Source: Mycobacterium sp. Marseille-P9652
GTDB lineage: Bacteria > Actinomycetota > Actinomycetes > Mycobacteriales > Mycobacteriaceae
Assembly (NCBI RefSeq): GCF_902652685.1
Contig: NZ_CACRUY010000003.1
Span: 62,001 to 126,000 of the forward strand
Direction: 5' to 3'
Length of the DNA stretch: 64,000 nt
Positions within the stretch are counted from its first letter, which is position 1; every line of letters starts with the position of its first letter. The notes under the pieces are model-generated. The model saw nothing but the letters and a program-made list of their open reading frames with translations. It made no database searches and was not told where the DNA came from. Below are positions 20,994 through 64,000 of the stretch, piece after piece. A program made the position numbers and the translations under genes.

Positions 20994-22163
20994 TCAGTCC
21001 GAGGGCGCCAACAGCCGCTCGTCGAGGTTGGCGTGAAAGTGCCCGATCGCACTCTCGTGCCGGCCGAACTCCACGAATTCGTTTGCGCCGGAGCGCAACC
21101 CGCGCTGGACACCCGTCGACATCTCGTTGTCCTCCTCGAGGCCCCGCTCGATGAAGCTGCCCGCGCCCACCAGCCGGTGCGACGGGTCGCGGGAAGCCTG
21201 TTCGGCGACTTCGGGTTTCACCATCGAGTAGGTGCTCACCATGGTGTGATCGACGTCCACCGGGTCGATCACCACAACGGACACCACGCCGGGGAACGTC
21301 GCCACCATGACGTTGGGGAACAAGTGGTAGACGTACGTCACCCGCGCGTCGACGGTCCAGGTCGACTCCGGGCGGTCGCGGAGGCGTTCGATGTTGCGGT
21401 ACGGGAACGTGAGACGACTGTTCGGGCCGAAATGCTCGACGACGTTGAGGTCGTCGTACTGCACCGGGAAGAACGTGTCCCGGTGCGTCGAGCGCAGGTG
21501 ATAGCCCTCCAGGAACTGTTCGACGAGCACCTTCCAGTTCATCGCCCGCAGTACCGAGTCCGCGTGAATGAGTCGCTCTGCGGGGCAGAGCTTTTCGCGC
21601 CACGGGCTGCCGTCGCTCAGCCAGGCCATCGCGTCGCCCTCGGGGGCGCCGGCGCGTTCGACCGGACCGATGACGACGAGGCCGTCGACCTCGCGGCTTC
21701 CGACCTCGACCAGACCGCGGGTCGACATGTCCAGGCCCGGGAAGGCATCGGGGTGCGGCACGTGCGACAGCGAACCGTCCAGCCGATACGTCCAGCCGTG
21801 GTAGCGGCACACCAGCGCGTGCGAACAGCCGGCTTCCTCGACCAGCGCGAACCCGCGGTGCCGGCACGCGTTGCGGAAGACCCGCGCCCGGCCGTCACGC
21901 CCGCGCACGGCGAACAGGGGCACTCCGAAGGCCGTCCGCTCGACGTGGTCCCCGGGGTTGGGAATCGCCGCCGAGGGCACGAAGACGCTCGGCATCGCGC
22001 GCAGCAGTCGCAGTTCGTCGGCGAAACGACCTGGGCTGAGGTAGTTTTCGACGGGCTCGCGCCACGGCGCGCCCTCGTCGGTGGTACCGGCGTCGATGTG
22101 GGCCAGGACGCGCCGGACGATCTCCACGTCGTCGGCGACCAACGTCGTTGTCGGCGAGCTCAT
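20994..22163 (-). CDS. Rieske non-haem iron oxygenase, alpha subunit
   Basis: A ring-hydroxylating oxygenase large subunit of 389 residues. The Rieske [2Fe-2S] site is CRHRGFALVEE through CRYHGWTY (about residues 97-121, 16 residues between the pairs). The mononuclear iron site is NWKVLVEQFLEGYHLRSTH (about 205-223), with the two His spaced HxxxxH and Glu two residues before the first. It would oxygenate a substrate using electrons from a ferredoxin and reductase that are not next to it. ATG 22163 (MSSPTTTL) is preferred over an upstream one. The L7/L12-like gene lies 52 bp upstream on the same strand. Confidence 0.9.
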   Translation of the reverse strand: MSSPTTTLVADDVEIVRRVLAHIDAGTTDEGAPWREPVENYLSPGRFADELRLLRAMPSVFVPSAAIPNPGDHVERTAFGVPLFAVRGRDGRARVFRNACRHRGFALVEEAGCSHALVCRYHGWTYRLDGSLSHVPHPDAFPGLDMSTRGLVEVGSREVDGLVVIGPVERAGAPEGDAMAWLSDGSPWREKLCPAERLIHADSVLRAMNWKVLVEQFLEGYHLRSTHRDTFFPVQYDDLNVVEHFGPNSRLTFPYRNIERLRDRPESTWTVDARVTYVYHLFPNVMVATFPGVVSVVVIDPVDVDHTMVSTYSMVKPEVAEQASRDPSHRLVGAGSFIERGLEEDNEMSTGVQRGLRSGANEFVEFGRHESAIGHFHANLDERLLAPSD

Positions 22164-22215
22164 GGCTGCCAGTATCACACTCGGACGGCACGCGACCAAG
22201 AAGGCCGTCTTCCCG

Positions 22216-22476
22216 CTACAGCGAGTCGACGGCCTCCTTCGCCTCCCGCAGATCGGCGCCCGTCAGCTCGCGGAAAAGCTTGATCGCGGCGATCTTGTTG
22301 CCGGATCGAGCCAGGGCCACCACCTCCGACGGCACTCCGCCCTCGAGTTGCCCCGGCGCGGTGGCGCCCACGTCGCTGCCGAACGTCGGGCACGGAATGC
22401 CAAGCCTTTCCGACAACAGCCGGACCTGTTGCTCGAGCAGGGCGAGGCGGCGGTAAACCACGGCGTCTTCCATCAC
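22216..22476 (-). CDS. Small protein with ribosomal L7/L12 C-terminal-like domain
   Basis: An 86-residue protein. Residues ~8-26 (RRLALLEQQVRLLSERLG) look like a short coiled coil. The C-terminal half (ARSGNKIAAIKLFRELTGADLREAKEAVDSL) matches the helix-turn-helix face of the bL12 C-terminal domain, which in the ribosome contacts translation factors. It lacks the ribosome-anchoring N-terminal domain of true bL12, so it is not the ribosomal protein; such orphan domains are known in actinobacteria without a clear role. Two ATGs in tandem (22476 or 22473) are possible starts. It sits between the oxidase and the Rieske gene, all on the minus strand. Confidence 0.8.
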   Translation of the reverse strand: MMEDAVVYRRLALLEQQVRLLSERLGIPCPTFGSDVGATAPGQLEGGVPSEVVALARSGNKIAAIKLFRELTGADLREAKEAVDSL

Positions 22477-51495: not shown

Positions 51496-51510
51496 GGGTT
51501 CCGCGGTACC

Positions 51511-52830
51511 GTGACCGCCGGCAACCCGGCCCTCACCCGCGACGAGGATGCGATCGGCACCCCGCCGGAAACGCCGTTCCGCGTGCCGGCCGAACGCTAC
51601 TACGACCCCGGGTTCGCCGCGCTCGAGACGGAGCGGATGTGGCCGCGCGTCTGGCAGCTCGCGTGCATGGTCGACCATGTCGCCGAGCCGGGCGACTACT
51701 TCGAATACCGTTGCGGCCCATACGGTGTGCTCATCGTGCGGGGCGACGACGGGGTGCTGCGCGCCTTTCAGAACGCCTGTCGGCACCGCGGCAACTCGCT
51801 CTGTGTGGGTTCGGGCTCCGGGCTGCGTGAGCTCAAGTGCGGCTACCACGGCTGGACGTGGGATCTCGCCGGCGAGCTCAAACGGGTGCCCGGCCGCAAG
51901 GGGTTCGGCTCGCTGCGGCTGTCGGACTTCCCGTTGCTGCCCGCCCGGGTGGACACGTGGGAAGGGCTCGTCTTCGTCAACCTCGACATGAGAGCGATGC
52001 CGCTGGCCGACTATCTGGAGGCGGTGCCCGACGACATCGCCTGGTGCCGGCTCGGCGACTTCCGCTGCTACGCAACGCTGACCGTCGAGGTCGAGGCGAA
52101 CTGGAAGACCATCGCCGACGGCTACAGCGAGACCTACCACGTCCAGACGCTGCACCCGGAATTGCTGCGCTGCGTCGACGATATCCATGCGCCCCAACGG
52201 ATCTGGGGTCATACGGGTAAGTCGGACCAGCCCTACGGGGTGCAGAGCCCGCGCTTCGGCGGCGCGCTGAGCGACGAGGAGGTGTGGGACGCCTACGTCT
52301 ACACCCAGGGCGCGCTGATGGGCGCGGCGGAGGGCGCGCCGTTCCCCGTGGACGAACGTGAGCCGGGTCAGACGGTCGCTGACGTGATCGCGGAACGCAC
52401 GCGCGCGTTCGCGGCCAGCCGCGGGGTGGACCTCTCCTGGGCCGACACCGACCGGGTCACCCGGCTGCACCAATACAACGTCTTCCCGAACATGACGTTG
52501 CTGGCCAACGCCGACCACCTGACCGTCATGTGCTCGCGACCGGGCCCGGACCCCGATCACGGCGAGCTGGTCATGTTCCTGATGATGCGGATGGCGCCCG
52601 GCGCGCCACGAAACAAGCCCGCCGACATGCGCACGACCGCCGGGGAAGCGGAGCCCGGGATCGTCCTCACGCAGGACATCCAAATTCTTGCCGGCCTGCA
52701 GCGTGGGATGCACCAGCCCGGCTTCACCCATCTGGTGCTCTCCAGCGAGGAGCGGCGGGTGATCAACATGCACCGCAACCTCGAGTGCTACCTCGACCTG
52801 CCGCAGTCCGAGCGGATGACCGGCGGCTGA
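51511..52830 (+). CDS. Rieske non-haem iron oxygenase, alpha subunit
   Basis: A 439-residue ring-hydroxylating-type oxygenase. The Rieske cluster motif is CRHRGNSLCVGS through LKCGYHGWTW (about residues 89-113, 17 residues between pairs). The catalytic iron site is NWKTIADGYSETYHVQTLH (about 196-214). An insertion of about 70 residues (ALSDEEVWDAYVYTQGALMG and on) follows. It needs electrons from a ferredoxin and reductase not encoded beside it. GTG 51511 is the first start in frame. It lies 15 bp after the D-aminoacylase-like gene and faces the cyclase-LuxR regulator. The substrate is unknown. Confidence 0.9.
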   Translation: MTAGNPALTRDEDAIGTPPETPFRVPAERYYDPGFAALETERMWPRVWQLACMVDHVAEPGDYFEYRCGPYGVLIVRGDDGVLRAFQNACRHRGNSLCVGSGSGLRELKCGYHGWTWDLAGELKRVPGRKGFGSLRLSDFPLLPARVDTWEGLVFVNLDMRAMPLADYLEAVPDDIAWCRLGDFRCYATLTVEVEANWKTIADGYSETYHVQTLHPELLRCVDDIHAPQRIWGHTGKSDQPYGVQSPRFGGALSDEEVWDAYVYTQGALMGAAEGAPFPVDEREPGQTVADVIAERTRAFAASRGVDLSWADTDRVTRLHQYNVFPNMTLLANADHLTVMCSRPGPDPDHGELVMFLMMRMAPGAPRNKPADMRTTAGEAEPGIVLTQDIQILAGLQRGMHQPGFTHLVLSSEERRVINMHRNLECYLDLPQSERMTGG

Positions 52831-56833: not shown

Positions 56834-57145
56834 CTAGGGCGCTTCGCTGACCAGGCTGAAATAGCGCAGGGCCGGCGGCGGCTCCGACTGGACCGCGACC
56901 GGCTTGGACATCCGGCCGGTTTGATACGCGGCCCGCAGGTTCGCCTTGGCCGTGTCGACGTCGGCGTCGATCTCGTAGAGCGTGATGAAAGACTGCCCGT
57001 CCTCGGCCCGCCAGCGCCGAGCCGAGCTGAAGCCGTCAATCGTCAGCATCTCCGGGATGTGCACATCGTCGTGCCACTTGTTGTACTCGTCGACGAGTTG
57101 TGCTGACTCCGGCCGGGTTTCGACAAGAAGAATTGACTTCGCCAT
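56834..57145 (-). CDS. Small alpha/beta-barrel (EthD/DUF4286-like) protein
   Basis: A 103-residue protein that looks like a dimeric alpha+beta barrel. Typical features: KSILLVETRPESAQLVDEYN, then KWHDDVHIPEMLTIDGFSSA (the His/Pro pattern near residue 28 is common to EthD-like proteins), ARRWRAEDGQSFITLYEID. Members act as small oxygenases, ligand binders or helpers in catabolic clusters. The ATG has GAGGAG 6 nt upstream. It is the last gene of the minus-strand cluster that includes the TauD dioxygenase, 32 bp upstream. Its exact role is unknown. Confidence 0.72.
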   Translation of the reverse strand: MAKSILLVETRPESAQLVDEYNKWHDDVHIPEMLTIDGFSSARRWRAEDGQSFITLYEIDADVDTAKANLRAAYQTGRMSKPVAVQSEPPPALRYFSLVSEAP

Positions 57146-57177
57146 GTGTTGCTCCTCGCGTCTGGGGGGTGGACCGG

Positions 57178-58023
57178 CTACTCGATCGGTTCGTGGCCGA
57201 GGACGGTGGTGCGCAGCATCTCTCGTGAGGAGTCCGGATCGTAGGGCGCCGCGCGGTGCAGGACGCCCTGGTTGTCCCACATCACGGTGTCACCCACCGC
57301 CCAGCTGTGCCGATAGACCTTGTCGGGAGTGGTCGCGCGGTCCAACAGCTCGGCAAGCAGGGCGCGACCCTCCTCGAGGTCCATGCCGACGATGTAGTCG
57401 GCGGAGGCGCCCAGCACGAGCGATTTACGGCCGCTGCGGTGCGTCCACACAAGCGGATGCTCGTGCGTGCGCCGTTGCCGCCACCGGCGCAGTTGCTCGG
57501 GAGTGGGATCGGGGGTCACGCGGCGCTGTGATGCCTCCAGGGAGTGCACCACTCGCAGAGCACCGAACCGTCGCTTCTCCTGGTCGCTCAGCTCTTCGTA
57601 CGCCGCATACGAGTTGGCGAACTCCGTTTCACCCCCGCGCTCGGCGACCGCAACGGCGGTCAGCACGGTGGCCTTCTGTGGGCACTCGTCGTCGATGGGA
57701 GTGCAGCCGTCGATGTGCCAGTCGAAGGTGGCCCGCAAGTACGCGGCCGAAGAGTTCTTCGACGTGTCCAGGGTGATGGGGTAAATGCCCGCCACCGGAT
57801 GGTGGCCGTCGGAGGAATGGTCCACCTCGCCCAACCGGCGGCAGAACCGCACCTGCACCTCGGGATTCATACCCAGCCTCGGGAACACCAAGACTCCGTT
57901 GTCTTCCAGAGCCTCCATCACCGCGTCGGCGAGCACTGGGTCGCAGGTCAACGGGTCGGCGTCGATTCCCGCGACCTCGGCGCCGACCGACGACGTCAGC
58001 TTGTTGATGCTCAGCAGGCTCAT
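57178..58023 (-). CDS. TauD/TfdA-family Fe(II)/2-oxoglutarate dioxygenase
   Basis: A 281-residue non-haem iron dioxygenase. The iron site is TFDWHIDGCTPID (HxD, about residues 100-107) and the distal His with 2-oxoglutarate Arg is GVLHRAAPYDPDSSREMLRTT (about 250-272). FANSYAAYEELSDQEKRRF in the middle is common in the family. It would hydroxylate or cleave a substrate with O2 and 2-oxoglutarate. Its ATG overlaps the stop of the 111-residue unknown gene by 4 bp (58020-58023), so it is co-translated with the Rieske unit. The same substrate may pass through both oxygenases. Confidence 0.9.
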   Translation of the reverse strand: MSLLSINKLTSSVGAEVAGIDADPLTCDPVLADAVMEALEDNGVLVFPRLGMNPEVQVRFCRRLGEVDHSSDGHHPVAGIYPITLDTSKNSSAAYLRATFDWHIDGCTPIDDECPQKATVLTAVAVAERGGETEFANSYAAYEELSDQEKRRFGALRVVHSLEASQRRVTPDPTPEQLRRWRQRRTHEHPLVWTHRSGRKSLVLGASADYIVGMDLEEGRALLAELLDRATTPDKVYRHSWAVGDTVMWDNQGVLHRAAPYDPDSSREMLRTTVLGHEPIE

Positions 58024-58355
58024 GGCGTCGGTTCACCGATGCGATCGAGGACGGCGTCGGCGGCGTCGGTGGGCTTGGGCTGGCCGAAGATCTCGACCGC
58101 CATCGCGACCATCACCAACGAGTAGATGAGGTGCAGCAGATGTAGTGCATCGTCGGGCATGCCGTCGAGGGGGAACTTGTCGCAATACTCGATCGCCTCC
58201 TCGAGTCTCGGGAAGAAGGCGTCGTAGAACTCCCGCATCTCGACCATGTCACTGGCCATCCGCTGGTTCCAGCGTTCGGATTCTGTTGCCAGACACCAGG
58301 TTTGCGCGAACACCTCGAGTTCGGCGAACGCGCTGGGCAGCAGAGTGTCAGCCAT
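58020..58355 (-). CDS. 111-residue protein coupled to a Rieske oxygenase, paralogue 1
   Basis: I do not recognise this family. It is likely all-helical. Key positions: WCL near residue 20, MVEMREFYDAFFPRLEEAI (about 37-55), CDKFPLDGMPDD (about 58-69), LLHLIYSLVMVAMAVE (about 73-88) and a final EPTP. About half of the aligned residues match the protein at 62549-62884. Both lie directly behind a Rieske oxygenase of the same subtype: here 3 bp separate the genes, and the stop overlaps the TauD start. The constant pairing suggests a small subunit, assembly factor or electron-transfer helper for the oxygenase. Confidence 0.8.
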   Translation of the reverse strand: MADTLLPSAFAELEVFAQTWCLATESERWNQRMASDMVEMREFYDAFFPRLEEAIEYCDKFPLDGMPDDALHLLHLIYSLVMVAMAVEIFGQPKPTDAADAVLDRIGEPTP

Positions 58356-58358
58356 GGC

Positions 58359-59627
58359 TCACACCCCCACCGGTTGTGGTCGCGTTTCGCGCTTATATCG
58401 CTCGACCCAGTCGACGACCTCCTTGTGCAGATGACGCACCAGGATTTCCTGGTCGTTCAGCGGAAATGCGTCGACGATGCCGGTTTCCAGGGCCGCCTGC
58501 GTGCCGCCGAGCATTCCGGCGTCCTGCAGCGCGAACTCCTTGAGGACCACGGCGGCCACTTCGTGCTCGATCCGTTCGCGCACGCTGCGTGCGGGGTGGA
58601 AGGCGGTGTAGGCCTCGAACCGGTGCGTGTTGTGCGACGTCGGCCAGTACCGGTAGAGCAGGTACCAGCCGCCGTAGATCAAAATCTCGAGGTTTGGGAA
58701 GATCTGGAAGTTGCTGATGCCCCACGGCTCGATGCCGCCGGGGTTCAGGCCGGCGGGCAGCTCGCCGATATCGGGCGTGCGCCACGGCCCGACGAGGCCA
58801 CTGCGGGTTGCCTTTTCGATCGGGTACATGTACTCCGGCGCCATGAGCCAGCGGCGGGTACCCGCGGTCGACACCACCCGGTGCGGGCGAGAGATTCCGA
58901 AGTGCGCGCACTCGAACCCGGCGTTGGGATCGCGTACGGCCGACGGAACCTGCTGGGGATGGAGGGCCGGGACGTGGTAATACTCCTGGAACGCGTCGGC
59001 GAAGATCTTCCAGTTGCTGTTGTTGTGCGCCAAGAAGTCGTAGCGCTCTGTGAGCTTGCCGAATGGGTAGTCGTCGAGAGCGGTGATCATCGGGCCCAGG
59101 AATTCGCGCAGGCCCTGACGCGGACGCTCGTCGAGGTTGATGAAGACGAAGCCGTTCCACACGTCGCAGTGCACCGGGCGCAGGCCGTAGTCGGCCGTGT
59201 CGAGGTCGAAGAATTCCGAAGGCTGCTGCACGAACGTCAGCGCGCCGTCGAGCCCGTAGCGCCACCCGTGGTATTTGCACGTGAACTGCCGGCACACGCC
59301 GCTGGTCTCCCGGTTGGGGAAGTCGTTCCACACCAGTTTGTTTCCGCGGTGGCGACAGACGTTGTGGAAGGCCCGGATGACCTCGTCCCGGTCCTTGACC
59401 AGGATGACCGAGGCGCGCGCGGCCTCGATCTCCTTGGTGAGGTAGCTGCCGACGCGCGGGAGCTCCTCGACCCGGGCGACGTTGAGCCAGGCGCGCTTGA
59501 AGATCGCCTCGCGCTCGAGTTCGTAGAACTCCGGCGAAGTCGAGTCCCGGAAGGAGATCGGCCCGGTGCCGAGCTCGGGATAATGCTCGGTCCAGCTGCC
59601 CTCCGCCGGCTTAGGCCACCGACCCAT
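58359..59627 (-). CDS. Rieske non-haem iron oxygenase with extended cluster loop, copy 1
   Basis: A 422-residue oxygenase alpha subunit. The Rieske motif starts VCRHRGNKLVWNDFPNRE and ends GVCRQFTCKYHGWRY (about residues 90-120); 23 residues separate the CxH and CxxH pairs, against 16-17 in the two other Rieske proteins of this window, and an extra Cys lies in the loop. The catalytic iron site is NSNWKIFADAFQEYYHVPALH (about 204-223, HxxxxH). The C-terminus LNDQEILVRHLHKEVVDWVE is shared with the copy at the right edge. A ferredoxin and SDR are encoded just upstream, a 111-residue partner just downstream. Substrate unknown. Confidence 0.9.
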   Translation of the reverse strand: MGRWPKPAEGSWTEHYPELGTGPISFRDSTSPEFYELEREAIFKRAWLNVARVEELPRVGSYLTKEIEAARASVILVKDRDEVIRAFHNVCRHRGNKLVWNDFPNRETSGVCRQFTCKYHGWRYGLDGALTFVQQPSEFFDLDTADYGLRPVHCDVWNGFVFINLDERPRQGLREFLGPMITALDDYPFGKLTERYDFLAHNNSNWKIFADAFQEYYHVPALHPQQVPSAVRDPNAGFECAHFGISRPHRVVSTAGTRRWLMAPEYMYPIEKATRSGLVGPWRTPDIGELPAGLNPGGIEPWGISNFQIFPNLEILIYGGWYLLYRYWPTSHNTHRFEAYTAFHPARSVRERIEHEVAAVVLKEFALQDAGMLGGTQAALETGIVDAFPLNDQEILVRHLHKEVVDWVERYKRETRPQPVGV

Positions 59628-59651: not shown

Positions 59652-60410
59652 TCACATCACGGCCCCGCCGTTGACGCCCAGCACCTGGCCGGTGATGAAG
59701 CCGGCCTCGTCCGAGCACAGAAAGCCGACGGCAGCGGCGATGTCGGCGCCGGTGCCGAGGTGGCCCATGGGGATGCGACTGGCCAGGGCGTCGTTGGACG
59801 GCAGGTGCCCCTGGTCCTGCGACTGCCGTTGCATCGGGGTCTCTATGCCCGACGGGGGAATGTTGTTGACCGTGATCCCCTTTGCCGCGTACTCGTTGGC
59901 CAGCGACTTCGTCAGTGTGATCACCGCACCCTTGGAAGCCGCATAGTGCGCCATGCGCGGCGACCCCCGCTGCGCGCTCGACGACGAGATCATGACGATG
60001 CGGCCCCATCCCGCATCGAGCATGTCGGGCAGCGCCACCTGGCAGCAGTGGAACGTCCCGGTCAGATTGACGTCGATGATGCGCGACCAGGACTCGGGGG
60101 TGATGTCGAGGAACCGGTCGAAGCCGACCAATCCGGCGCTGGTCACCAGGATCGTCACCGGTCCGAGCTCGCTTCGCACCTTGGCGAAGGCCTCCTCCAC
60201 CGCGGGGCGGTTCGAGACGTCGGCCGCCACGCCGAGCGTCTGGATTCCTCCGGCGCGAAGGTCTTCGGCAACCCGTTGCGCCGCTTCGCCATTGACGTCG
60301 AGCACCGCCACCTTGTGTCCGCGCCGGCCGAGCTCGTGGCACGTGGCCTCGCCCATGCCGGAGGCGCCGCCGGTGACCACCGCCACCCGTGTCAAACGCC
60401 CGTGATTCAT
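59652..60410 (-). CDS. Short-chain dehydrogenase/reductase (FabG-like)
   Basis: A 252-residue SDR. Cofactor motif TGGASGMGEATCHEL is at about residues 13-27, VAADVSNRPAV follows, and TSAG replaces the usual NNAG (about 89). The catalytic Ser lies in IVMISSSSAQ (about 140) and Tyr/Lys in YAASKGAVITL (about 155). The end is FITGQVLGVNGGAVM. It starts 13 bp after the ferredoxin stop and ends 24 bp before the Rieske gene, so it belongs to this operon. A likely role is oxidation of a hydroxylated product made by the oxygenases. Confidence 0.9.
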   Translation of the reverse strand: MNHGRLTRVAVVTGGASGMGEATCHELGRRGHKVAVLDVNGEAAQRVAEDLRAGGIQTLGVAADVSNRPAVEEAFAKVRSELGPVTILVTSAGLVGFDRFLDITPESWSRIIDVNLTGTFHCCQVALPDMLDAGWGRIVMISSSSAQRGSPRMAHYAASKGAVITLTKSLANEYAAKGITVNNIPPSGIETPMQRQSQDQGHLPSNDALASRIPMGHLGTGADIAAAVGFLCSDEAGFITGQVLGVNGGAVM

Positions 60411-60423
60411 GGCTGCCGTCCCG

Positions 60424-60759
60424 TTACTCGTAGACCACCGTGACCGATCGGCTGGTCGGCAGCGACTGGCAGGTCAGGATCCAGCCCTCGGCCACTTCCT
60501 CGTCGGTGAGCGCGTCGTTGTTGATCATCCGCGCGCTGCCCTCGGTCAACTGCGCCATGCACGTCCCGCAGTTTCCGACTTCGCAGGACGAGGGTGCGGC
60601 CAGGCCGGCCATCCGCGCCGTCTGCAGCAGGGTGTCGCCGTGCCGGTAGCCGACGGTCGTGGTCCGCCGATCGAGTTGAATCGTCACCTGCTCGGTCGTC
60701 GTGCCCGCGGCATTGTGCTGAGTAGCCGTTGCGTCGCAATTCGTCCCCACGTTTCCCAT
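60424..60759 (-). CDS. [2Fe-2S] plant-type ferredoxin
   Basis: A 111-residue ferredoxin. The cluster ligands are in SSCEVGNCGTCMAQLTEG (CxxxxCxxC, about residues 59-67) and the fourth Cys in WILTCQSLPTS (about 97). The N-terminal ~25 residues (CDATATQHNAAG region) lie outside the fold. It would carry electrons to the Rieske oxygenases. ATG 60759 is chosen because a TACTCT -10 box ends 7 nt upstream (leaderless); a GTG at 60762 is the alternative. It is the first gene of the ferredoxin-SDR-Rieske-111aa-TauD operon. No ferredoxin reductase gene is in the window. Confidence 0.88.
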   Translation of the reverse strand: MGNVGTNCDATATQHNAAGTTTEQVTIQLDRRTTTVGYRHGDTLLQTARMAGLAAPSSCEVGNCGTCMAQLTEGSARMINNDALTDEEVAEGWILTCQSLPTSRSVTVVYE

Positions 60760-60766
60760 CACGGCG

Positions 60767-60844: not shown

Positions 60845-61297
60845 CTAGGAGTCGGCGTGGTCGGTGAAAAGGGCATGGCCCGTTCCCTTTTCGACGACGC
60901 GGGCCAGCAGGTCGTGCAGCAGTTGCTGTTCGTCGGCGCTGAGTACCCCGAAGACTCTCTCGTGCGCGGCGAGCGCGTCCGCCAGCACCGCCGTGGTGAT
61001 GGCCCGCCCCTCGTCGGTGAGATACGCCTGCATGATTCGGCCGTGTTGCGGGTCTTGCTTGCGCTCGACCAGACCGCGGCGTTCCAGCGCCGACAGCGCA
61101 AGCTGGGCGCCCTGGGGGCTGATCAGCAGCCGACGGGCCAGTTCCGCGCCCGACAGGCCGGGTTCGTTGGCGAGTTGGCGCATCAGCCCGATCTGAGCCG
61201 TCGTCACGCCGTGGGAGCTGATGGCCTCGTTCACCGTGGTCAGGGAGAAGTGGAACGCCTGCTTGAGCAGCCACAAGATGTTGTCGGTGAGCTCCAC
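60845..61297 (-). CDS. MarR-family transcriptional regulator
   Basis: A 150-residue MarR regulator. The winged HTH spans about residues 28-98: GVTTAQIGLMRQLANEPGLS, then GAELARRLLISPQGAQLALSALERRG and a wing LVERKQDPQHGRIMQAYLTD. Terminal helices form the dimer. Its ATG lies 5 bp downstream of the amidohydrolase stop, so it is expressed from the upstream Rieske-2 unit, while its stop lies about 40 bp before the twin palindromes at the ferredoxin promoter. This placement would let one unit control the other. The inducer is unknown. Confidence 0.9.
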   Translation of the reverse strand: MELTDNILWLLKQAFHFSLTTVNEAISSHGVTTAQIGLMRQLANEPGLSGAELARRLLISPQGAQLALSALERRGLVERKQDPQHGRIMQAYLTDEGRAITTAVLADALAAHERVFGVLSADEQQLLHDLLARVVEKGTGHALFTDHADS

Positions 61298-61301
61298 GCC
61301 G

Positions 61302-62552
61302 TCACGCGCCCTTCTCCAGCCGGTGGACGTTCCCGTCCTTCATGACGAACCGCACGTCGAGGGTCTTCGCGATGTCGCGCGACGGATCGCCCGGCACCGC
61401 AACGATGTCCGCGAGGTAGCCCGCCGCGAGGCGGCCCAGCTCGTGTTCGGCTTCGATGAGCTCGGCGCTGGTCACGGTCGCCGCACGGATCGCCTGCATG
61501 GGCGTCATCCCGCGCTCGACCAGCGCGCACAGCTCCTTCGCGTTCTGCCCGTGCGGGACAGCCGGCGCGTCGGTTCCGCAGGCGATCCGCACCCCGGCGG
61601 CAATGGCCTTGGGCAGCATGGCTTTCGCCCGGGGAAAGACCTCGTCGGCCTTCTTGCGCAGCTCGGGCGCTATCCGGTCGACGGCCATCGCGTCGGTGAG
61701 GTAGGTGGTCGAGACCAGGAAGGTGCCGTGGTCGACCATCATCTGGATCGTGTCGTCGGTCGCCAGGAAACCGTGCTCGATGCAGTCGATGCCCGCCCGG
61801 ATGCAGGCGCGGATCGCGCTGTCGCCGACGGCGTGCGCGGCGACGCGGACGCCGGCGCGATGCGCCTCGTCGGCGATCGCGGCGAATTCCTCGTCGGAGT
61901 ATTGCTGGGCCCCCGGCGCCGTGCTGTGCGACATCACGCCGCCCGAGGCAGACACCTTGATCAGCTTGGCGCCGTGCCGAATCTGGTAGCGCACGCAGGC
62001 CCTAACGTCGGGCACGCCGTTGGCGATGCCCTCGGCCACGGTCAGCGGCATGATGCCCGGCGCCAGCCGCTGGAAGACCGTCGGGTCCAGGTGGCCGCCG
62101 TAGGGAGTGACGGCGTGGCCGGCGGGGATGATCCGCGGCCCGGCGTGCCAGCCCTGATCGATCGCCCGCTGCAGCGCCACGTCCAATAGGTAGCCGCCGG
62201 TCTTGACCATCAGGCCCAGGTTGCGCACCGTGGTGAAGCCGGCGTCCAGCGTGGTGCGGGCATTGACGGCACCACGCAGCGTGCGGTACGCAGGATCGTC
62301 TTGGACACCGTGCATGGGGTTGGGCAAGCCCTCCGGTCCGCCGGGACCGCCGATGAGCAGGTTCAGCTCCATGTCCATCAGGCCCGGCAGCAGGGTCACG
62401 TCGCCCAGGTCGATCTCAGTCGCCGAATCCGGTGGCGCCTCAGCGGGATTGACCGCGGCGATCCGGTTGCCCTCGATCACCAGGACGGCCGGCGAGCGGA
62501 CCGCACCGCCGTCGACGTCGGCCCAGCGGTCGGCCCGCAGCACGATGGTCAC
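61302..62552 (-). CDS. Amidohydrolase (imidazolonepropionase/Xaa-Pro dipeptidase-like) lacking the HxH motif
   Basis: A 416-residue amidohydrolase-fold protein. GTG 62552 overlaps the stop of the 111-residue gene (GTGA, 62549-62552), which decides the start. Later metal and catalytic sites look intact: Lys in LIKVSASGGVMSHS (about 172), His in VAAHAVGDSA (about 218), His in CIEHGFLATDD (about 237) and Asp in ACGTDAPAVPHG (about 314). The first metal motif, usually PGLIDxHxH, reads LLPGLMDMELNLLIGGPGG, with Glu and Asn in place of the two His. It may be a mononuclear or altered enzyme. It sits in the Rieske-2 unit. Confidence 0.85.
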   Translation of the reverse strand: MTIVLRADRWADVDGGAVRSPAVLVIEGNRIAAVNPAEAPPDSATEIDLGDVTLLPGLMDMELNLLIGGPGGPEGLPNPMHGVQDDPAYRTLRGAVNARTTLDAGFTTVRNLGLMVKTGGYLLDVALQRAIDQGWHAGPRIIPAGHAVTPYGGHLDPTVFQRLAPGIMPLTVAEGIANGVPDVRACVRYQIRHGAKLIKVSASGGVMSHSTAPGAQQYSDEEFAAIADEAHRAGVRVAAHAVGDSAIRACIRAGIDCIEHGFLATDDTIQMMVDHGTFLVSTTYLTDAMAVDRIAPELRKKADEVFPRAKAMLPKAIAAGVRIACGTDAPAVPHGQNAKELCALVERGMTPMQAIRAATVTSAELIEAEHELGRLAAGYLADIVAVPGDPSRDIAKTLDVRFVMKDGNVHRLEKGA

Positions 62553-62884
62553 GGGACGGGTTCGGAGACGCAGTCGAGGCTCGAGGCGCCGGAGTCGGGC
62601 ACGCGCGGCTGTTTCCAGCACTCCACCGGAAACGACACCATGATCATCGAGTACAGCAGGTGCATCAGGTTGGTGACGTCCTCGGGCAGGTCGTCGAGGG
62701 GGAACTTGTCGCAGTGGGCAATGGCCTCCTCGGCGCGCGGCGTGATGGCGTCGTAGAACGCCTGCATCTCGGCCATGGAGCTGTTCAACCGCTTGCGATA
62801 ACGCTGGGGCTCGCTGTCCAGGCACCAGGCCGAAAACGGCTCCAGGTCCGCGAATTCGCTTGGCAGCTTGGCGTTCACGGTCAC
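62549..62884 (-). CDS. 111-residue protein coupled to a Rieske oxygenase, paralogue 2
   Basis: The second member of the family seen at 58020-58355, with the same length. Shared positions include WCL, SxMxEMxxFYDA, PRxEEAI, CDKFPLD, LxHLxYSxxMV and a final SEPVP. No metal motif beyond two conserved Cys (near residues 20 and 58) is visible; a helical fold is likely. Its ATG overlaps the stop of the Rieske-2 gene by 4 bp (62881-62884) and its stop overlaps the amidohydrolase start, so all three are co-translated. Function unknown; a partner of the Rieske oxygenase is inferred. Confidence 0.82.
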   Translation of the reverse strand: MTVNAKLPSEFADLEPFSAWCLDSEPQRYRKRLNSSMAEMQAFYDAITPRAEEAIAHCDKFPLDDLPEDVTNLMHLLYSMIMVSFPVECWKQPRVPDSGASSLDCVSEPVP

Positions 62885-64000
62885 ACCCCCACCGAATTGT
62901 GCTGGTATTCGGCGATCCAGGCGGCCGTCTCGTGGTGGAGGTGGCGCAACAGGATCTCCTGGTCGTTGAGCAGAAATTCGCTCACCGCACCCGACTCGAT
63001 CATGCTCTGGGTCGCCTCGAGGGTGTTGGCGTCCTGCAGGCCGTATTCCTTGAACGTCACCGCGGCGAGTTCCTGGGCGACGCGGTCGCGCGGCGTGCGC
63101 GGCTCGGGGAAGTACAGGGTGCCCTCGAAGAGGTGGGTGTGGGGGGACGTCGGCCAGTAGCGGTAGGTCAGGTACCAGCCCTGACTCCAGATCAGGATGA
63201 CGAAGTTGGGGAACAGCTGGAACGAGTCCAGCCCCCAGGGATCACACTTGGCCGGGTTCACCCCGGCGGGCAGCTCGCCGAGATCCGGCTTCTCCCAGGG
63301 CCCGAAAAGCCCACTCTGACAGATGTCTTCGATGGGCTTGCGCATCTCGGCGTCCATCTCCCAGGCGCGGACGCCGGAGGTGCTGACGAGGCGATGCGGT
63401 CCGTCGATGCGGTAGTGCGGGGCCTCGAAGCCGGCCTCGGCCGCGGCCTTGGCGTAGCTGGTGGGCGACTGGTTCGCGTGCAGCACGGGCGCGTGATAGA
63501 ACTCCTGGAACGCGTCCATGTACAGCTTCCAGTTGGCATTCACCTCCGAGCGGTATTGCCAGCGCGAGGTCATCCGCTCGAACGGGTAACCCTCCAACCC
63601 GGTGACCATCGGCCCGAGGAAGTCGCGCAGCGACTGCGCGGGTTGCGCGGCGAAGTTGACGAAGATGAATCCCGCCCACACGTCGCAGTGGACCGGCACG
63701 AGCCCGTAGCGGTCCTTGTCGAGATCGAAGAATTCGCTCTCTTGTTGCACGTGGGTGAGCTTGCCGTCCAGGTCGTAGCGCCACGCGTGGTACTTGCAGG
63801 TGAACTGCCGGCACACGCCGCTGGTCTCTTCCAACGGCATGTCGTTCCACACCAGCTTGTTGCCGCGGTGCCGGCAGATGTTGTGGAACGCGTTGATCGC
63901 ACCCTGCGCGTTGCGGACCACGATGATCGACGTGTTCGCGACCTTGACTTCCTTGGTGAAGTAGCTGCCCTTGCGTGGAAGGCTTTCCACGCGGCCGACA
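62881..64000 (-). CDS. Rieske non-haem iron oxygenase with extended cluster loop, copy 2 (5' end cut by window edge)
   Basis: A partial oxygenase alpha subunit; the frame runs off the right edge, and by comparison with copy 1 about 50 N-terminal residues are missing. The Rieske motif starts ICRHRGNKLVWNDMPLEE and ends CRQFTCKYHAWRY; again 23 residues lie between the two pairs with an extra Cys, and Ala stands where copy 1 has Gly after the second His. The iron site is NANWKLYMDAFQEFYHAPVLH. The C-terminus LNDQEILLRHLHHETAAWIA matches copy 1. It is coupled to the 111-residue gene downstream. An internal ATG at 63990 is not the start, since homologous sequence continues upstream of it. Confidence 0.9.
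   Translation of the reverse strand, partial: VGRVESLPRKGSYFTKEVKVANTSIIVVRNAQGAINAFHNICRHRGNKLVWNDMPLEETSGVCRQFTCKYHAWRYDLDGKLTHVQQESEFFDLDKDRYGLVPVHCDVWAGFIFVNFAAQPAQSLRDFLGPMVTGLEGYPFERMTSRWQYRSEVNANWKLYMDAFQEFYHAPVLHANQSPTSYAKAAAEAGFEAPHYRIDGPHRLVSTSGVRAWEMDAEMRKPIEDICQSGLFGPWEKPDLGELPAGVNPAKCDPWGLDSFQLFPNFVILIWSQGWYLTYRYWPTSPHTHLFEGTLYFPEPRTPRDRVAQELAAVTFKEYGLQDANTLEATQSMIESGAVSEFLLNDQEILLRHLHHETAAWIAEYQHNSVGV

Follow-up and report, generated by a model that had tools for sequence, protein, structure and literature searches.

In the window, by which we mean the whole 64,000-nucleotide stretch of Mycobacterium DNA that was analysed, two homologous genes for a small protein each lie directly behind the gene for a Rieske oxygenase alpha subunit. 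The small protein is paired with the alphas of one clade, the two genes are tightly coupled, the small protein is under purifying selection and has diverged in parallel with its partner, and it matches no known family. Its fold is predicted to be helical and unlike NTF2. From the genomic sequences we propose that it is an undescribed helical subunit of this one Rieske oxygenase clade, needed for a soluble or active enzyme, and we give this reading a probability of roughly 0.55.

The paired genes and their operon in mycobacteria

The two pairs and the genes around them are as follows, with Pfam matches in brackets.

56834-57280, minus strand: small protein with an EthD-type barrel look by eye (no Pfam match)
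57178-58023, minus strand: TauD-type dioxygenase, its first 4 bp overlapping the end of copy 1 (PF02668, 3.2e-56)
58020-58355, minus strand: small helical protein, copy 1, 111 residues (open reading frame with ATG start; AlphaFold2 model)
58359-59627, minus strand: Rieske oxygenase alpha subunit 1, 422 residues (PF00848, 1.6e-47; PF00355, 1.1e-13)
59652-60410, minus strand: short-chain dehydrogenase (PF13561, 6.1e-61)
60424-60762, minus strand: [2Fe-2S] ferredoxin (PF00111, 2.1e-15)
60845-61297, minus strand: MarR-type regulator of the operon (PF12802, 2.2e-14)
61302-62561, minus strand: amidohydrolase, directly following copy 2, with an uncertain start codon (PF01979, 1.1e-38)
62549-62884, minus strand: small helical protein, copy 2, 111 residues (open reading frame with GTG start)
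62881-63999, minus strand: Rieske oxygenase alpha subunit 2, running beyond the window end (PF00848, 4.8e-37)

The first-pass annotation had described two homologous 111-residue reading frames with about half of their residues identical. Their coordinates were correct and both lie on the minus strand, and the alignment showed 54 of 106 identical residues (51%) with 72% positives (E 7e-41). Each had also been placed directly behind a Rieske alpha of one subtype, and this was borne out. Alpha 1 lies upstream of copy 1 with a 3-bp gap between its end at 58359 and the start of copy 1 at 58355, copy 2 overlaps alpha 2 by 4 bp, and the two alphas, both with PF00848 and PF00355, were 57% identical across 369 residues. 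The alpha search of the genomes extended the alpha 2 match past the window, up to G000:C3:126146. A third paralogue in the same genome (G000:C10:55552-55863) adjoins a third alpha of the same subtype, with an amidohydrolase and a SnoaL-like gene downstream.

On the minus strand the gene order is alpha 2, small 2, amidohydrolase, MarR-type regulator, ferredoxin, short-chain dehydrogenase, alpha 1, small 1 and TauD-type dioxygenase. Judged by sequence, the [2Fe-2S] ferredoxin of the operon is the likely electron donor for both oxygenases. A scan of genome contigs with the small protein gave 355 relatives, of which the best 80 were all mycobacterial by title; among these 80 the closest relatives were from Mycobacterium, with 93% to M. 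alsense. Using small 2 as the query we took 80 mycobacterial loci from named genomes and made positional counts in the 68 that were long enough for a comparison of the operon. Alpha 2 and small 2 were present in all 68, as was the amidohydrolase. Next came the regulator (67 loci), the dehydrogenase (66), alpha 1 (64) and the ferredoxin (62). Small 1 and the TauD gene were each found in 55 of the 68. Nine of the 13 loci without small 1 stop within alpha 1 and two stop in or just past the dehydrogenase, and in the stretches fetched for loci L038 and L103 neither the dehydrogenase nor alpha 1 was seen. The EthD-like small protein at 56834-57280 had a counterpart in only 9 of the 68 relatives.

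Pairing of the small gene with one alpha clade

The small gene was found in 28 of 61 genomes, all 28 of them among the 37 genomes of the window's genus. The alpha search covered 37 of the 61 genomes, including 23 of the window's genus, 18 of which gave matches. In these 23 same-genus genomes all 50 small genes adjoined an alpha, one of the 50 pairs having a short alpha match and a 450-bp gap. Conversely, 50 of the 53 alpha places (E <=1e-40) had a small gene just behind, and the three that had none were the weakest matches (142-144 bits). In an actinobacterial sample the gene was present in 9 of 296 genomes and 3 of 192 genera, so it is rare outside mycobacteria within the actinobacteria.

Plasmids showed the same pairing. 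Searches by tblastn found 21 plasmid records with the small protein and 13 with the alpha at a cut-off of E 1e-40, which weaker clade members would escape, and the small gene was next to the alpha in 13 of these 13. Pairs were carried by plasmids of Rhodococcus, Sphingomonas, Sphingobium, Novosphingobium, Azospirillum, Paroceanicella, Burkholderia, Variovorax and Acinetobacter, so that the family extends beyond actinobacteria to proteobacterial plasmids, its breadth outside actinobacteria coming from plasmids only. Detection of the small gene of Azospirillum and Novosphingobium P6W needed a profile. We counted pairs in 17 records, namely 15 of the 21 small-protein records together with the Azospirillum and P6W records from the alpha search; the six left out were five with the lin-plasmid score (see below) and a second Acinetobacter record. 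The 17 records carried 20 small genes, 17 of them with an adjacent alpha, and 42 PF00848 matches, 17 of them with a small gene; some of the 42 are fragments and one falls short of the cut-off, and the pairing was read from coordinates by eye.

The three plasmid small genes without an adjacent alpha were those of Sphingomonas MM-1, Sphingobium indicum B90A and Cupriavidus necator C39. The MM-1 and B90A copies are on lin plasmids cut up by IS6100. An alpha remnant lies about 2.5 kb away on the opposite strand in MM-1, and no PF00848 match was found on the B90A plasmid. Five further records, from Sphingobium TKS, MI1205 and a second MM-1 plasmid, gave a score equal to that of the lin-plasmid copies, and pMI1 of MI1205, the one of the five that was inspected, showed the same linC context. 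In the lin-plasmid copies (L118, L154 and L215) the small gene lies next to IS6100 and is preceded by linC and a gene with an EthD domain. About 4 kb from the small gene, MI1205 (L215) carries a shortened alpha of 963 bp with DNA similarity to the alpha of Sphingobium RSMS; this alpha adjoins another IS6100 and has its own dehydrogenase and EthD-domain genes.

In Sphingobium RSMS itself (L150, 4947-6556) the alpha and the small gene were the only annotated genes between two copies of the IS21-like element ISRsp3, in a gene table that is incomplete. The presence of the pair alone between the two copies suggests that two genes suffice as an oxygenase cassette. In Sphingomonas NBWT7 (L152, 3690-5318) the alpha is split, its Rieske and catalytic pieces lying in different frames before an open small gene.

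Altogether we collected 195 distinct alpha/small pairs. The order was alpha-small in 191, and 93% of these 191 overlapped or had a gap of at most 10 bp; in the other four the order was reversed and the partnership kept. Distances between alphas and between small proteins correlated with r 0.89 across 51 non-redundant pairs (maximum of 1000 permutations 0.295), a value inflated by shared descent. A Rosetta-stone link was rejected, as a fusion of alpha and small protein in one frame was absent from the stop-to-stop frames searched. With the neighbours tabulated, homologues of the small protein were not mostly away from Rieske genes and none matched a known family in the collections searched, and the earlier description of a family of unknown function behind Rieske genes stands.

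The window's genome had 10 PF00848 matches, 3 of them with a small gene. Two of the alphas without a small gene are in the window and served as internal controls.

20997-22262, minus strand: Rieske alpha without a small gene
51496-52827, plus strand: Rieske alpha without a small gene

In a tree of 51 alphas, 38 with the gene and 13 without were separated by a single branch (SH-aLRT 98), and 0 of 500 shuffles gave a value as low as the observed split; the tree was a quick one with no bootstrap, and its flagged long branches were mostly alphas without the gene. It included only alphas aligned over at least 300 residues that were found by a profile grown from the window alpha, and several plasmid alphas fell outside it, being not fetched or shorter than the limit. 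The single-branch split, together with the 3 of 10 matches in the genome, makes the small gene a trait of one alpha clade in our sample.

The alphas had the CxH..CxxH motif in 185 of the 195 pairs and the iron-site pattern in 192. Three residues ahead of the first iron His they have a Glu, as does carnitine monooxygenase CntA. CntA (6y9c, 6y8j) was the best PDB match of the alpha at 5e-28 and 101 bits, compared with 164-248 bits for the 13 plasmid alphas, so there is seemingly no solved structure inside the clade, the two sets of scores coming from different programs and the PDB chains not being on the alpha tree.

Some operons with the pair also contained an NTF2-like gene (Acinetobacter, Novosphingobium EMRT-2, Paroceanicella and Azospirillum). 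The helical protein is therefore not a mere substitute for the NTF2-like one, and its co-occurrence with the latter makes it the constant partner and the NTF2-like protein an optional one. The Paroceanicella and Azospirillum operons (L120, 5001-6571; L144, 5281-6926) have the order alpha, small gene, two cupins and NTF2-like gene, with a ferredoxin and an asparaginase later, an order hinting at an amide or nitrogen-containing substrate.

Family sequence and predicted fold

The small protein was 106-131 residues long in the 195 pairs, and its gene was labelled "hypothetical protein" wherever the plasmid records carry annotation. Across 10 diverse sequences the residues L6, P7, L13, W20, R28, R32, F43, L73 and E88 were constant, and the 51-pair non-redundant set added F10, E14, Y44 and A46 at 90% or more. 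Among copies differing by 3-20% at the protein level, 3227 pairs, not independent of one another, gave a median dN/dS of 0.108. This value, together with the third paralogue beside a third alpha, argues that the small reading frames are not chance. The shared motifs, which the first-pass annotation had taken as the mark of a real constrained family, were present, and the dN/dS agrees with constraint; the motif CDKFPLD, however, proved to be mycobacterial and not family-wide. Its Cys was nearly invariant only in mycobacteria and not constant in the wide set, on which ground a metallochaperone acting through this Cys was rejected. Neither Cys nor His was among the family-wide invariant residues of the 10 sequences or the near-invariant residues of the 51-pair set, and their absence disfavours metal delivery.

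Rieske beta subunits have 160-180 residues and an NTF2 cone. Both window copies matched 0 families in Pfam and NCBIfam, and 10 diverse members, including the window pair, reached a best E of 0.18 in Pfam and nothing in NCBIfam, so that a beta-subunit or SnoaL profile was not matched by any of the 10. Against the PDB by sequence only weak matches were obtained, the best being a designed protein at E 0.0051, and with a profile the matches were at E 0.48 or higher.

The AlphaFold2 model, calculated from 44 sequences (the window pair plus 42 sequences of mycobacterial loci), had a mean pLDDT of 87.2 and a pTM of 0.73. It predicted helices 8-20, 25-34, 37-58 and 68-90 at high confidence and no strands, with a tail that is loose from about residue 91 and partly conserved in the alignment. 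A Foldseek search against the PDB found no chain at E <=0.001 (best 3.5), and none of the 38 fold matches listed, all at E 3.5 or higher, was named an oxygenase beta subunit or NTF2-like. Viral relatives were looked for in BFVD and dropped, with nothing at <=0.001 and a best value of 0.68. Since the model is all-helical and without a PDB fold match, the small protein is not a predicted NTF2-fold beta subunit. The earlier judgement that it does not look like the usual beta subunit thus agrees with the four predicted helices and the profile searches, and an ordinary NTF2/SnoaL beta subunit was rejected on the predicted fold, the profiles and the separate NTF2-like gene of some operons. We also modelled the alpha and small protein of the window as one read-through chain, in which the helices of the small domain were at 432-444, 449-457, 461-482 and 492-515; the tail was still loose and there was no sign of docking in this poor, monomeric model (mean pLDDT 70.8, five models 51-71).

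Role of the small protein and comparison with known systems

In the mechanism that we propose, the small protein would be made together with the alpha and kept as a permanent subunit. It would bind to the alpha trimer through its helices, perhaps with the loose C-terminal tail as well, in a stoichiometry such as alpha3 plus three small chains. The oxygenase would require it in order to be soluble or active, and a need for it in catalysis may be supposed.

The doubtful alternative that comes next is an assembly or folding factor, which would hold the new alpha during insertion of the Rieske cluster and the iron and formation of the trimer, and would leave afterwards. Such a factor would account equally well for the pairing, the coupling and the clade restriction; it might use the loose, partly conserved tail to bind transiently, and most of the traces of a subunit would also be left by a chaperone. 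However, the family-wide Cys or His expected for metal or cluster handling is absent, the genome's remaining Rieske oxygenases lack a neighbour of this kind, and Rieske oxygenases otherwise use the general iron-sulphur machinery. We modestly prefer a subunit to an assembly factor because the RSMS pair is the only one annotated between the insertion sequence copies and because the family has no constant Cys or His.

It is improbable that the small protein is an effector or coupling protein, unrelated to MmoB and like it in role, that binds the mature enzyme and adjusts its electron transfer or the access of substrate. It is small, cognate and one per oxygenase, with ferredoxin genes nearby in several operons, but the MmoB-type effectors of diiron monooxygenases are alpha/beta proteins, in contrast to the predicted all-helical fold, which had no fold match. 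Slimmer still is the chance that the small protein is an enzyme in its own right that acts on what the oxygenase makes: the invariant W20, R28, R32 and E88 could form a site in a catabolic operon setting, but the small gene goes with the alpha clade, and the remaining genes of the pathway differ from operon to operon (amidohydrolase and TauD, CoA transferases, formamidase, cupins, PQQ dehydrogenase). Mere co-inheritance without functional contact is very improbable, for even though operon neighbours can persist by descent and 191 of 195 pairs have one order, the pairing outlasts paralogy, four reversals of gene order and dispersal across two phyla, whereas the other neighbouring genes change.

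Compared with known systems, the proposed helical subunit resembles the NTF2/SnoaL beta subunits of alpha3beta3 enzymes of the naphthalene dioxygenase type in being encoded beside the alpha and in looking non-catalytic. It differs from them in its size of about 110 residues, its four predicted helices and its lack of a Pfam match, and some operons have both. CntA shares the Rieske and catalytic domains with the window alpha and differs in being an alpha3 enzyme alone, as given in section 6 of a 2025 review (PMC12445004). The Rieske architectures tabulated in that section are alpha3, alpha3beta3, alpha3alpha'3 and alpha3alpha3 only, with NdmA/NdmB as alpha3alpha'3 and phthalate dioxygenase as alpha3alpha3 (PMC12445004, section 6). 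As set out there, these last two show the variety of partner chains, and their partners are other alpha chains and not a small helical protein.

We tentatively suggest that the clade, across actinobacteria and proteobacteria, may have an architecture outside this table: an alpha trimer needing an all-helical subunit of unrelated origin, sometimes with an NTF2-like one in addition. If this is true, enzymes of the clade would be inactive or misjudged whenever the alpha is expressed alone. Rieske oxygenases are widely studied in pollutant breakdown and biocatalysis; a strict partner of one clade would mean a further architecture and might account for unsuccessful heterologous expression of clade members, and the small gene could serve annotators as a marker of this alpha clade. 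Searches of a library of openly licensed papers yielded no description of the small protein, which is weak evidence of absence.

The nearest likeness may be PdmAB, the phenylurea N-demethylase of Sphingobium YBL2 that Gu et al. are said to have described in 2013, which reportedly consists of an alpha and a small "beta" without reductase genes. The pdmAB genes of that study reportedly lie between two insertion sequences, and the RSMS cassette of alpha and small gene looks like this arrangement. PdmB, which we take to be the small subunit of this herbicide N-demethylase, may belong to the small-protein family, and the word "undescribed" may then not hold. If PdmB is a member, the family would be less new, it would have a named working representative, and the reading of the small protein as a subunit would gain strongly.
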